Origin: Faecalibacter bovis | Lineage (GTDB): Bacteria; Bacteroidota; Bacteroidia; Flavobacteriales; Weeksellaceae | DNA: 64,000 nt | Assembly: GCF_017948305.1 (NCBI RefSeq) | Contig: NZ_CP072842.1 | Coordinates: 2,672,501-2,736,500 of the forward strand | Direction: 5' to 3' | In this document: piece by piece, positions 18,948-55,331 of the stretch | How positions within the stretch are numbered: position 1 is the stretch's first letter | Layout of the letters: each line of letters opens with the position of its first letter | Made by a program: the position numbers and the translations under genes | Notes under the pieces: generated by a model | The model's input: only the letters and a program-made list of their open reading frames with translations | Databases searched by the model: none | What the model was told of the DNA's origin: nothing

Positions 18948-19021
18948 GTGATTGTAGCTCAGTTGGTTAGAGCGCCGGATTGTGGTTCCGGAGGTCGTGG
19001 GTTCGAGACCCATCATTCACC
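18948..19021 (+). tRNA. tRNA-His(GTG), copy 1 of 5
   Basis: A 74-nt cloverleaf. Anticodon stem CCGGA/TCCGG has loop TTGTGGT (anticodon GTG), T arm GTGGG-TTCGAGA-CCCAT, and acceptor GTGATTG/CATTCAC with one T-T mismatch. A G precedes position 1, opposite C73, the His-specific identity pair. CCA is not encoded. Confidence 0.97.
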
Positions 19022-19071
19022 CTAAATAAACTTTTAGAATTTAAGTTTCAAAATCAAAATTCAATAACTTG

Positions 19072-19145
19072 GTGATTGTAGCTCAGTTGGTTAGAGCGCC
19101 GGATTGTGGTTCCGGAGGTCGTGGGTTCGAGACCCATCATTCACC
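19072..19145 (+). tRNA. tRNA-His(GTG), copy 2 of 5
   Basis: Identical in sequence to copy 1, 124 nt downstream of it, with the extra 5' G and no encoded CCA. Confidence 0.97.
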
Positions 19146-19194
19146 CTAAACAAACTTTAGAATTTAAGTTTTAAAATCAAAATTCAATAACTTG

Positions 19195-19268
19195 GTGATT
19201 GTAGCTCAGTTGGTTAGAGCGCCGGATTGTGGTTCCGGAGGTCGTGGGTTCGAGACCCATCATTCACC
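19195..19268 (+). tRNA. tRNA-His(GTG), copy 3 of 5
   Basis: Identical to copy 1, 123 nt after copy 2. Confidence 0.97.
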
Positions 19269-19317
19269 CTAAACAAACTTTAGAATTTAAGTTTTAAAAT
19301 CAAAATTCATTAACTTG

Positions 19318-19391
19318 GTGATTGTAGCTCAGTTGGTTAGAGCGCCGGATTGTGGTTCCGGAGGTCGTGGGTTCGAGACCCATCATTCACC
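19318..19391 (+). tRNA. tRNA-His(GTG), copy 4 of 5
   Basis: Identical to copy 1, 123 nt after copy 3. Confidence 0.97.
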
Positions 19392-19440
19392 CTAAACAAA
19401 CTTTAGAATTTAAGTTTCAAAATCAAAATTCATTAACTTG

Positions 19441-19514
19441 GTGATTGTAGCTCAGTTGGTTAGAGCGCCGGATTGTGGTTCCGGAGGTCGTGGGTTCGAG
19501 ACCCATCATTCACC
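19441..19514 (+). tRNA. tRNA-His(GTG), copy 5 of 5
   Basis: Identical to copy 1. The last copy, followed 6 nt later by a strong terminator. Confidence 0.97.
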
Positions 19515-19520
19515 CTATTA

Positions 19521-49738: not shown

Positions 49739-50719
49739 TTATAACGTAATATCCTTTCCGTTATAAATTCTAGTATCAGGTAACTTCTTTTTTAGATTTC
49801 TTAATTCTTCTTCTGAAATTGGTGTATCTACAATGTCAAGCATTTTAAGATTCTTTAAATTACCTAAACTTTCCGGAAGCGATTTCAATTTTGTACGATT
49901 TAGATTTAGAATATTCAGATTTGTTAAATCTCCAATCGTATTTGGTAGTGATTCGATTGGATTATCATTTAAAACTAAATTTTTCAGATTCTTTAGATTT
50001 CCTATTTCTTTAGGAATTTCTTTAATTTCATTATCAAAAAGCATTAAATACACTAAGTTCTCTAACTTCCCAATCTCTTTTGGTAAATTTTCAAACCCAT
50101 TTTCGTATTAATATAATTTGTTCAATTTTGTAAGATTACCAATTTCTTTTGGTAAATGTTTAATTCCAACCAAATTATAACTTTTATTTGCTATATGTTT
50201 CCCACCTTTATTATTGGTGATTTCTAACGATTCTAAGTTGGTTAATTTTCCTATTTCAACTGGTAAAGTTGTAATTGGCAATAGGGATAAATTTAACTTT
50301 TTTAGCGAAGTAAGATTTCCAATTGCAGAAGGAATTTTCTCGGTTTGATTCATATTATATTCAAAAGATTCTAATCCATCAATCTTAAAAAGATCTTCTG
50401 GTAAATCTTTCACCTGAGTGCCTGAAATATAAAATTTTTTAAGATTTTTTAATGTATTTATCTTGGCAGGTATAGAAGTTAAATCCGGTGAATTTGTTAC
50501 AATTAAAACTCTAATATTCTCGTTATGTTTACTAATTAAATCAAATGGTATTTGATCTATTTTCATTAGATTAACGCCTCAATCTTTAATCATCTCAATT
50601 ACTTCAGCTTCTTTTTTTTGTTTAGGATTTTGATCAGGATCAGCATTCCAACTATCCGTTTGCGCTGTCACGAAATTAGAAAAAGCTAACATTGAAAATA
50701 GTAGCAACGTTTTTTTCAT
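49739..50719 (-). pseudogene. Secreted leucine-rich-repeat protein with two nonsense codons
   Basis: A single reading frame carries a signal peptide (MKKTLLLFSMLAFSNFVTAQ), then a TGA at 50579-50581 (EMIKD, stop, GVNLMKIDQIP), then about nine leucine-rich repeats interrupted by a TAA at 50108-50110 (KLNKLY, stop, YENGFENLP), and ends NGKDITL. The repeats follow LPxxIGNLTxLKxLxL, the bacterial 22-23-residue LRR type. Repaired, it would be about 325 residues. Both lesions are point stops without frameshift, so the gene is likely dead, or a part without signal peptide (start at 50566) may still be made. Confidence 0.8.
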
Positions 50720-51622: not shown

Positions 51623-53500
51623 ATGAACAAAGGAAGCATTAATGTATCAGTGGAAAATATTTTTCCATTAATCAAGAAATTCTTATACTCTGATCACGAA
51701 ATCTTTTTACGCGAATTAGTTTCTAATGCAACTGATGCTACGTTAAAATTAAAGCATTTAACAAATATTGGTGAAGCCAAAGTTGAATATGGTGATCCTA
51801 AAATTGAGGTAAAAATCAACAAAGAAAATTCAACTTTACATATTATCGACCAAGGTTTAGGTATGACTGCTGAAGAGGTTGAAAAATACATCAATCAAGT
51901 TGCTTTTTCTGGAGCAGAAGAATTTATTAATCAACACAAAGATGCTGACGGAATCATTGGACATTTCGGGTTAGGTTTCTACTCTGCTTTTATGGTGGCT
52001 GATAAAGTAGAAATTATTACAAAATCTTACAAAGATGAACCAGCAGCTCATTGGACTTGCGATGGTTCGCCAGAATTTACTTTAGATGTAGCAGATAAAA
52101 CCGATCGAGGAACTGAAATTATATTACACATTGCTGAAGATTCTAAAGAATTTTTAGATGAGTGGAAAATCCGTGAACTTTTATCAAAATACAATAAATT
52201 TATGCCTGTTCCGATTAAATTTGGAACGCGTAAAGAAACTTTACCATTACCTGAAGGTGCTGCAGAAGATGCAAAACCAGAAGAAATTGAAGTAGATAAT
52301 ATCATCAATAATCCTACACCAGCTTGGACAAAAACTCCTTCAGATTTAGTTGATGAAGATTATCAAAAATTTTATCGTGAGTTGTATCCAATGCAATTCG
52401 AAGATCCATTATTCCACATCCATTTAAATGTTGATTATCCATTTAATTTAACAGGAATTTTATTCTTCCCGAAATTAGGAAATAACATTAATATCGATAA
52501 AGATAAAATTCAATTATATCAAAACCAAGTATTTGTTACGGACGAAGTTAAAGGGATTGTTCCAGATTTCTTAATGTTATTGCGTGGAGTTATAGATTCT
52601 CCGGATATTCCTTTAAATGTTTCTCGTTCTTATTTACAAGCTGATGGAGCTGTTAAGAAAATTTCAGCACACATCACTAAAAAAGTTGCGGATAAAATGG
52701 GTGCTTTAATTACTCAAAACCGTGAAGAATACGAACAAAAATGGAACGATATTAAAGTCGTAATTGAATATGGAATGGTAACCGAAGATAAATTCTTCGA
52801 AAAATCTGACAAGTTCGCTTTATATCCTACTACAAATAATACTTATTATACTTGGAATGAATTAATCGAAAAGATTAAAGGCAATCAAACAGATAAGAAC
52901 AATAAAACTGTTATTTTATATGCAACAGATAAAGATTCACAAGATCAATATATCCAAATTGCAAACGAAAAAGGATATGAAGTTATTTTCTTAGATTCAC
53001 CTATTGCTGCGCATTTAATTCAGAAATTAGAAGGAACAAAAGAAAATGTTTCATTTGCACGTGTAGATGCGGATCATATCAATAACTTAATTGATAAAGA
53101 CGAAGTTAAAATTTCAAAATTATCTGATGAAGATAAAGAGAAATTAAAAACTCAAATTAATGAAGGGATTAACAACCAATCATATACTGTACAATTAGAA
53201 GATTTATCAGCTACTGACGCACCATTTATTATTACGCAATCAGAATTTATGCGTCGTATGAAAGATATGCAGGCGACTGGTGGAGCTGGAATGTTTGGTA
53301 TGGGTAACTTCCCAGAAATGTACAATGTTGTAGTAAATTCTAATTCAGATTTAGCTACACAAATTTTAGCTAATGAAAATCAAGAAGAAAGAAATGAAAT
53401 TATTTCTCATGCATTAGATTTAGCAAAACTTTCTCAAGGATTGTTAAAAGGTAAAGAATTGACAAATTTTATCAATAAATCTTTTAATAAATTAAAATAA
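51623..53500 (+). CDS. htpG: Chaperone HtpG (Hsp90)
   Basis: 625 residues with the three Hsp90 domains. The ATP-binding GHKL domain (1-about 220) shows FLRELVSNATDATLK, IIDQGLGMTAEEV and IIGHFGLGFYSAFMVA. The middle domain has VFVTDEVKGIVPDFLMLLRG and DSPDIPLNVSRSYLQ. A dimerisation domain follows (about 500-625). Cytosolic ATP-dependent folding helper, usually heat-induced. No sigma-32-like signal was recognised upstream. Terminator at the end, then a 1-kb region without clear genes. Confidence 0.97.
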   Translation: MNKGSINVSVENIFPLIKKFLYSDHEIFLRELVSNATDATLKLKHLTNIGEAKVEYGDPKIEVKINKENSTLHIIDQGLGMTAEEVEKYINQVAFSGAEEFINQHKDADGIIGHFGLGFYSAFMVADKVEIITKSYKDEPAAHWTCDGSPEFTLDVADKTDRGTEIILHIAEDSKEFLDEWKIRELLSKYNKFMPVPIKFGTRKETLPLPEGAAEDAKPEEIEVDNIINNPTPAWTKTPSDLVDEDYQKFYRELYPMQFEDPLFHIHLNVDYPFNLTGILFFPKLGNNINIDKDKIQLYQNQVFVTDEVKGIVPDFLMLLRGVIDSPDIPLNVSRSYLQADGAVKKISAHITKKVADKMGALITQNREEYEQKWNDIKVVIEYGMVTEDKFFEKSDKFALYPTTNNTYYTWNELIEKIKGNQTDKNNKTVILYATDKDSQDQYIQIANEKGYEVIFLDSPIAAHLIQKLEGTKENVSFARVDADHINNLIDKDEVKISKLSDEDKEKLKTQINEGINNQSYTVQLEDLSATDAPFIITQSEFMRRMKDMQATGGAGMFGMGNFPEMYNVVVNSNSDLATQILANENQEERNEIISHALDLAKLSQGLLKGKELTNFINKSFNKLK

Positions 53501-53525
53501 GTTTAGAAACCATTATAATTAAAGG

Positions 53526-53556
53526 ATCTCAGCCAAAATTGGTTGAGATTTTTTTA
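53526..53556 (+). terminator. Terminator after htpG
   Basis: ATCTCAGCCAA pairs with TTGGTTGAGAT (one G-U pair), followed by seven T. Confidence 0.9.
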
Positions 53557-53792
53557 TAACTAAAAACATTTATTGAAGTGTTAAACTTTTAAAATATAGC
53601 TTTTTAAATTTGCTTAACATGATATTTGTCATTAATTTTACTACAAGAAATAAAGTTAATCGTTCTCGATTTTAAAATTATTGAGGTTTTAATAAAGAAC
53701 ATTTCTAGTATTAATTTTATTCTTACAATTCGAGATTTAACTTAATAAGATGATTTCGTTAAATGAAATTATTTTCATTATCAAATTTCGGG

Positions 53793-53821
53793 AAGGATGT
53801 TAAGCAATTGACATCCTTTTT
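53793..53821 (+). terminator. Array hairpin 1
   Basis: AAGGATGTTAA, GCAA tetraloop, TTGACATCCTT (11 bp with one G-U), then T. The compensating change GTT/GAC preserves pairing relative to hairpin 2. Confidence 0.7.
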
Positions 53822-54003
53822 AAACCAGAAGTTCATTTATTGTAGTGTTAATACAATCTTGATTCAAGATCATATTCATTAATTATAATTTTTTATATTA
53901 TATAACTTTATATAATAATTAGATTACAAATTGCTACAATACTTTTAAATATTAGAACTTAACAAATATTAGTGTAGTCATTCATTTATTAACTAATGTT
54001 TGG

Positions 54004-54033
54004 AAAAGGATTTCAAGCAATTGAAATCCTTTT
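54004..54033 (+). terminator. Array hairpin 2
   Basis: AAAAGGATTTCAA, GCAA tetraloop, TTGAAATCCTTTT, 13 perfect pairs. Confidence 0.7.
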
Positions 54034-54211
54034 GAATTGATTCGTTCTTTTTCAAGCGTGATTGATTTAATTAACTTGACATATTACATCTTGATGTATG
54101 TAAATCATTAAAATTTTATTATCAAAAGATTTAATGTTTTTAAATCAATCTATTTTAAAAGAAACCATATTCAAAAGAATAAATCATAATATAATGTTTT
54201 ATTTTTTTGAT

Positions 54212-54244
54212 AAGGATTTCAATTAATAATAATTGAAATCCTTT
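54212..54244 (+). terminator. Array hairpin 3
   Basis: AAGGATTTCAATTA, ATAA loop, TAATTGAAATCCTT, 14 pairs. The T-run after it is weak (TTTATTT). Confidence 0.6.
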
Positions 54245-54452
54245 ATTTAGGTTCAAACTAGAATTGTGAAAAATAATAAAAGCCGCATAAATACAATGTT
54301 ATAAACATTGAAAATTGTGTGAATGTAAAAAGATAATTCATTCAGACGTCTTAATTATTTAGTATTAATATATTATTTTTTATTAAAAGCAATTCGATTA
54401 TATAATTTGAACATCAACAAATAGTACCTTAAAAAAGTACGCTAATTTTGTT

Positions 54453-54488
54453 AAGGATTTCAATCCAATGGATTGAAATCCTTTTTTT
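54453..54488 (+). terminator. Array hairpin 4
   Basis: AAGGATTTCAATCC, AAT loop, GGATTGAAATCCTT, 14 pairs, followed by a strong T-run. Confidence 0.75.
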
Positions 54489-54495
54489 ATGAAAC

Positions 54496-54528
54496 AAAAA
54501 AAAGGTGTAGAATAATCTACACCTTTTT
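54496..54528 (-). terminator. Terminator of the sdhCAB operon
   Basis: AAAAAGGTGTAGA, ATAA loop, TCTACACCTTTTT, read on the minus strand with T-run from the A8 on the left. Confidence 0.88.
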
Positions 54529-54554: not shown

Positions 54555-55331
54555 TTAAACTGATTCAGGAGAAGCAATTTTCGCAGATAAGAACTCACGG
54601 TTCATACGCGCGATATTGTCTAAAGAAATTCCTTTAGGACATTCTACCTCACAAGCTCCTGTATTAGTACAGTTACCAAAACCTTCTAAGTCCATTTGTG
54701 CAACCATTTTTTGTGCACGACGAGAAGCTTCAACTTGTCCTTGTGGTAATAATGCAAATTGAGAAACTTTAGCACCTACGAATAACATCGCAGATCCATT
54801 TTTACAAGTTGCAACACAAGCTCCACATCCGATACATGTTGCAGCATCAAACGCTTCATCAGCAGCTTTTTTATTAACTGGAATTGCATTAGCATCAACT
54901 GTACGTCCAGAAGTATTTACAGAAATGTAAGCACCAGCTTGTTGGATACGGTCAAAAGAAGAACGGTCAACAATTAAATCTTTGATTACAGGGAATGCAG
55001 CAGATCTCCATGGTTCGATGTAAATAGTCTCTCCATCTTTAAACATACGCATGTGTAACTGACATGTTGTAGTTCCTGAGTCTGGTCCGTGTGCTTGTCC
55101 ATTAATGAATAAAGAACACATACCACAGATACCTTCACGACAATCGTGGTCAAAAGCAACTGGTTCTTTTCCTTCTCCGATTAATTGCTCGTTTAATAAA
55201 TCAAGCATTTCTAAGAATGAAGAATCAGTCGAAACATCTTTTAGAGAATATGTTTCCATGTTCCCTTGAGCATTAGCGTTTTTTTGACGCCAAATTTTCA
55301 GTGTTATACTGATTGTTTTTGATGATGCCAT
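54555..55331 (-). CDS. sdhB: Succinate dehydrogenase/fumarate reductase iron-sulfur subunit
   Basis: 258 residues. Three cluster motifs are complete: [15 protein letters not shown] for [2Fe-2S] (with an upstream DHDC Cys), [11 protein letters not shown] for [4Fe-4S] and [12 protein letters not shown] for the third cluster. It carries electrons from SdhA flavin to the membrane quinone site. Last gene of the operon sdhC-sdhA-sdhB, 62 nt after sdhA, ended by a terminator. Confidence 0.95.

Follow-up and report, generated by a model that had tools for sequence, protein, structure and literature searches.

The 64,000 nt of Faecalibacter bovis DNA analysed here, which will be referred to as the window, contain a gap of ~1 kb between the convergent genes htpG and sdhB in which four related hairpins follow one another. 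A first-pass annotation had read this gap as four tandem small-RNA genes, which raises the question whether the hairpins belong to separate genes, to one RNA or to no RNA gene at all. The boundaries and upstream elements of the locus are as follows.

51623-53500, plus strand: htpG
53524-53555, plus strand: intrinsic terminator of htpG, GGATCTCAGCC..GGTTGAGATTTTTTT, recognized from its sequence, outside the array
53573-53585, plus strand: TTGA(A/T)GTGTTAAA, nearly invariant in the alignment of 12 genomes
53609-53640, plus strand: promoter, with -33 element TTTG (53609-53612), 20-nt spacer and -7 box TAATTTTA (53633-53640)
53619-53632, no strand assigned: palindrome ATGAtatttgTCAT in the promoter spacer, from the alignment
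54499-54528, minus strand: sdhB-side terminator, AAAAAGGTGTAGA..TCTACACCTTTTT, marking the array boundary
54555-55331, minus strand: sdhB

Distribution of the array among relatives

The window genome (2.8 Mb) was compared within its GTDB genus, which comprises Empedobacter, Algoriella and Faecalibacter and was sampled with 14 genomes including the window genome itself. In the htpG tree it grouped with F. macacae (99/98 support). The first-pass annotation had asked whether the locus is kept beside htpG or sdhB, and the array was indeed found in the same htpG-sdhB gap in 12 of the 14 genomes (11 of 13 relatives plus the window genome). Eight of these, belonging to Empedobacter and Algoriella, carry two units, two genomes carry three, and two, among them the window genome, carry four. 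Neither BLAST nor a model of unit 1 (R1) detected an array in the remaining two genomes; in one (G005) the gap is instead filled by a coding gene and in the other (G011) the sdh operon is inverted. The array is thus not essential to the genus.

Unit 1 is orthologous across all 12 array genomes, and unit 4 of the four-unit genomes matched the last unit of genome G004 over its full length, while full-length alignment of the internal units was limited by divergence to close species. Searching 150 genomes of the family with R1 returned the 12 genus members and one weak hairpin match at an unrelated place in another genus. At the sampled loci of other genera of the family, htpG did not adjoin sdhB and no such array was present downstream of htpG; plasmid records gave no match either.

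The end hairpin and its copies elsewhere

The four hairpins were confirmed at 53793, 54004, 54212 and 54453 and share a common stem. Its form AGGATTTCAA/TTGAAATCCT occurs three times in the window compared to 0.00 occurrences expected from shuffles, and 24 of the 25 sites of the exact stem pattern in the 14 genus genomes (25 of 28 for a slightly shorter pattern) lie inside the array locus. The hairpin is therefore neither a chance product nor a dispersed repeat. The latter origin, which the first-pass annotation had set against its own reading, draws on the finding that an identical hairpin occurs at a handful of unrelated contigs, some of them from Bacteroidota, among 85,000 genomes. By our estimate, which was not computed, this number is compatible with chance given how many terminators exist. 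Moreover, the hairpins in Emticicia-like and other contigs were rejected as relatives of the array, as they are ordinary terminators following other genes or a tRNA. With 24 of 25 exact copies confined to one locus, the probability that a dispersed repeat or mobile element accounts for the array is negligible.

Two of these contigs are worth describing in their own right. In a Cytophagaceae MAG (JAIXOL010000012.1, L066 2680-3130), four tandem terminators with the same AAGGATTTCAAGAAA stem, one of them with a stem mismatch, lie 3′ of a tRNA gene and are separated by spacers that look like tRNA 3′-end fragments; this is a separate tandem tRNA-fragment/terminator array. An Emticicia MAG (L067) carries a single copy of the hairpin after a tRNA.

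The end hairpin, designated P4, has the form AAGGAUUUCAA-GNRA-UUGAAAUCCUU followed by U's and looks like an ordinary intrinsic terminator. Hairpins 1 and 2 share a GCAA loop, as had been noted, and the short loops across species (GCAA, GAAA, GTAA, GGAA or GAGA) are all GNRA; the Faecalibacter group has a longer stem or loop in its units 3 and 4. The earlier observation that hairpin 1 keeps its pairing through paired changes was borne out, since in GGATGTTAA-GCAA-TTGACATCC a double change preserves the stem, and three genomes share this U-A to G-C change.

Anatomy of the units

Every unit shows the same order of parts: a domain closed by GUUC and GAAC (P1), a middle helix (P3) and the terminator hairpin (P4).

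53645-53822, plus strand: unit 1, supported by pair counts with compensatory changes, by the genus-wide alignment and by model R1
53662-53665 with 53697-53700, plus strand: P1 of unit 1, GUUC/GAAC
53731-53738 with 53783-53790, plus strand: P3 of unit 1, CGAGAUUU/AAAUUUCG
53775-53782, plus strand: invariant TCATTATC of unit 1
53793-53818, plus strand: terminator hairpin of unit 1
53831-54035, plus strand: unit 2
53831 (GUUC) with 53955-53958 (GAAC), plus strand: P1 of unit 2
53963-54002, plus strand: P3 of unit 2
54004-54033, plus strand: terminator hairpin of unit 2, GCAA loop
54044-54247, plus strand: unit 3
From 54044, with an arm at 54157-54164, plus strand: P1 of unit 3
54171-54210, plus strand: P3 of unit 3
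54212-54243, plus strand: terminator hairpin of unit 3, short U-run
54251-54490, plus strand: unit 4
54251-54257 with 54406-54412, plus strand: P1 of unit 4, GUUCAAA/UUUGAAC
54416-54452, plus strand: P3 of unit 4
54453-54483, plus strand: terminator hairpin of unit 4, 7 U, the longest U-run of the four

The 5′ strand of P1 is GUUC and the 3′ strand GAAC (or GAGC, GGAC), and together they enclose a domain that varies, is often branched and contains a further helix, P2. Just before each terminator hairpin sits P3, which usually starts with CAA and ends with UUG; in unit 1 it reads CGA(A/G)AUUU/AAAUUUCG. This layout recasts several motifs of the first-pass annotation. The GTTC near which each unit begins was seen as described, but it forms one arm of P1, with GAAC as the other. 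Likewise, both the TTTTG/TTTCG box and ACAAATA exist, but as the 3′ and 5′ arms of P3 rather than as separate elements. Unit 1 does not start at 53557, as had been assumed, since 53557-53644 (the first ~90 nt) consists of the promoter and upstream DNA.

Evidence for a conserved RNA fold

In unit 1, 99.6% of the cells pair compared to 59-64% with the partner slid by one column, and changes on both sides were found in P4 and in the inner helices of both P1 and the middle domain. For every unit from the second onwards, the pairing energy of the 5′ arm with its own 3′ arm was compared to that with the arms of other units in 20,000 permutations. Own arms gave a mean of -14.05 kcal/mol for P1/P2 (permuted, -9.56), -9.46 kcal/mol for P3 (permuted, -4.66) and -10.62 for P2 alone (permuted, -7.11), and in each case none of the 20,000 permutations was as low. 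The signal of P1 alone was weaker (54 of 20,000 permutations), as its conserved sequence would lead one to expect. Helix sequences thus differ between units and yet pair within each of them, which points to an RNA fold under selection and speaks against an origin by chance, as neutral terminator debris or as peptide-coding sequence. Thermodynamic z-scores of the unit bodies without the hairpin were weak to moderate, so that the covariation tests carry the argument.

Small proteins as the product of the gap were rejected: no ORF is conserved across the 12 array genomes, and indels do not occur in threes. The 18-codon ORF previously listed at 53619-53675 exists in the window, but its start falls inside the promoter and it is not conserved. 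Elsewhere in the window, open frames on the minus strand at 49739-50566 read as a leucine-rich-repeat protein that is apparently split (49739-50053 and 50108-50566) and may represent a frameshifted gene.

An Rfam search at gathering and relaxed thresholds yielded no meaningful match for the array, including 6S-Flavo and Flavo-1. A 6S RNA was also rejected as its identity, as the 6S-Flavo-like match of the genome lies elsewhere (G000:C1:85236-85361); with 45.6 bits compared to the Rfam gathering score of 85, that match is likely a diverged 6S RNA of the genus. TCATTATC was considered as a seed and discarded: it does not vary in unit 1, but it is partly paired in the Faecalibacter folds and was not seen as a motif common to the other units.

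Promoter and transcription

In 11 of the 12 array genomes, the promoter TTTG-N20-TAATTTTA occupies the same position ahead of unit 1. The scan for the Bacteroidota pattern (TTTG, 18-21 nt, TAnnTTTG-like) is permissive, with ~2 hits per kb of the window, and the evidence therefore lies in the conserved position and not in the hit. In Flavobacterium psychrophilum, the -7 box spans positions -12 to -5 relative to the transcription start (PMC9723704), which places the start of the array near 53645; the RNA of unit 1 probably begins there. TTGA(A/T)GTGTTAAA, ~60-72 nt upstream of this start, is a possible activator site judging from its conservation. The palindrome in the spacer, kept as ATGAT-N4-RTCAT in most relatives, is a candidate operator.

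The same scan detected a strong, similar promoter before the tRNA-His array of the window, where five tandem tRNA-His (GTG) genes with identical Rfam scores are arranged at a near-constant spacing of ~123 nt (18948-19515), a number of copies that is unusual for a single tRNA.

Four independent small-RNA genes, every one with a promoter and a terminator of its own, would be in line with the terminator-like hairpin at the end of every unit and with the tandem or multicopy arrangement of LhrC and the Neisseria sibling sRNAs. However, no conserved TTTG-N18-21-TAnnTTTG site was found before units 2-4 in any clade, and conservation extends to the CAGA(A/C)GUUC linker immediately 3′ of hairpin 1, which would be expected if the RNA were continuous. 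The mean U-run is 5.1 for internal hairpins (n = 18) compared to 7.5 for last hairpins (n = 12; Mann-Whitney p = 1.7e-5, with related genomes treated as independent). A promoter at unit 1 only and weaker internal U-runs fit better with a single transcription unit containing leaky internal terminators. From the first-pass proposal, the tandem, structured, non-coding array with a conserved stem is therefore retained, whereas the separate genes are not; we consider them unlikely and rank them third among the readings.

It might also be argued that the hairpins are redundant terminators left by duplication, which insulate htpG and sdhB from each other without any regulatory RNA. Their position between convergent genes and their resemblance to good terminators would agree with this. 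Nevertheless, both genes have their own terminators outside the array, and such a stack would leave the conserved promoter, the operator-like palindrome and the covarying P1-P3 unexplained, making it very improbable.

Conservation of P4 and candidate protein partners

The P4 arms of different units within a genome show an identity of 0.91-0.96, a figure somewhat favoured by the fact that the hairpins were located by their own sequence, compared to 0.57 for the 3′ arm of P3. A terminator as such does not require a fixed stem sequence. Since P4 is fixed and P3 drifts, although the two stems belong to the same units, P4 seems to be held by more than pairing. The earlier suggestion that the stem is a shared functional or protein-binding element is thus plausible, and so is a sequence-specific partner of P4 as a candidate.

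The RNA-binding families searched were Hfq, CsrA (PF02599) and RRM_1 (PF00076). None of the three was detected in the 14 genus genomes, with controls positive for each (Bacteroides for RRM_1), and the putative partner would accordingly not be among them.

These findings bear on the second-ranked reading, a single long non-coding RNA in which the repeated, invariant hairpins dock an RNA-binding protein, as a sponge or scaffold, similar to CsrB/RsmZ with another protein. The identity of the P4 arms relative to P3 and the variable number of units, as in sponges, speak for it. The repeated site, however, is a terminator hairpin with a U-run, and the candidate proteins CsrA, Hfq and RRM_1 went undetected in the genus. 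We regard this reading as rather improbable.

Proposed mode of action

The array is best explained as an operon of two to four units encoding trans-acting regulatory RNAs whose heads diverge and whose tail is shared, to which we assign a probability of roughly 0.6. Layout, fold, conservation, non-coding nature, the single conserved promoter and the graded U-runs come from comparison. Transcription, partial termination and action in trans are what we infer from them. The sigma-A-type promoter at 53609-53640 would start one RNA near 53645, running toward the sdhB terminator and made of two to four paralogous units, each with a GUUC/GAAC-closed domain, a covarying middle helix and an intrinsic terminator hairpin, usually GNRA-capped. 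The internal hairpins would only partly terminate transcription or stabilise 3′ ends, resulting in a nested ladder (unit 1; 1+2; up to 1-4); transcription would end at the last hairpin, whose U-run is the longest. Most likely, the diverging 5′ domains would base-pair with mRNAs, and the near-invariant end hairpin would serve as a common 3′ stability or recognition element. A more specific version, in which the fixed terminator hairpin is a protein dock, the 5′ domains are exchangeable target-pairing heads and the graded internal terminators determine the proportions of short and long RNAs in bacteria negative for Hfq, CsrA and RRM_1, is offered tentatively and is itself doubtful.

Knowledge of sRNA biology in Flavobacteriales is thin, and three well-known families of RNA-binding regulators, Hfq, CsrA and RRM_1, went undetected in the 14 genomes of the genus. 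As the copy number shifts between close species, the heads drift and the tail stays fixed, the locus represents a natural experiment on the functional part of an sRNA, and the array could be used as bait for a hitherto undescribed RNA-binding protein.

Comparison with known systems

A literature search, mostly of open-access journals, found no description of the array, which is probably a lineage-specific, previously undescribed regulatory RNA operon. Listeria LhrC1-5 is a five-member sRNA family with several members in tandem, thereby resembling the array, but it belongs to a Gram-positive host and has separate promoters. The LhrC family is named in PMC5880928. Bacteroides FopS, which acts with RbpB, likewise consists of multicopy paralogous Bacteroidota sRNAs ending in a Rho-independent terminator (PMC11697453). 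Its 14 copies are distributed over multiple loci and share a conserved single-stranded 5′ seed (PMC11697453), whereas in the array the copies are in tandem and conservation lies in the terminator, with 5′ domains that diverge; moreover, RRM_1, the domain of RbpB, was not found in the 14 genus genomes. The array is not assigned to the CsrB/RsmZ sponges either, as these genomes contain no detectable CsrA. Flavobacterium Rfp18 is, like the array, a genus-conserved and strongly folded flavobacterial sRNA, but has been described as a single sRNA (PMC9723704); the two are compared here by description.

By analogy, the array would work most like the tandem sibling sRNAs NmsRA and NmsRB of Neisseria, as a lineage-restricted variant. 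It consists of paralogous adjacent units with a shared fold and is non-coding, as such siblings are; a promoter for each copy, typical for example of LhrC though not required of all, is replaced by one conserved promoter at unit 1. NmsRA/NmsRB are tandem non-coding RNAs of near-identical structure whose sequences have diverged between the copies (PMC5362039). They differ from the array in comprising two copies, in belonging to Betaproteobacteria and in being drawn as two distinct transcripts (PMC5362039), and the likeness implies no homology. Their targets, established by experiment, are mRNAs of the TCA cycle (PMC5362039).
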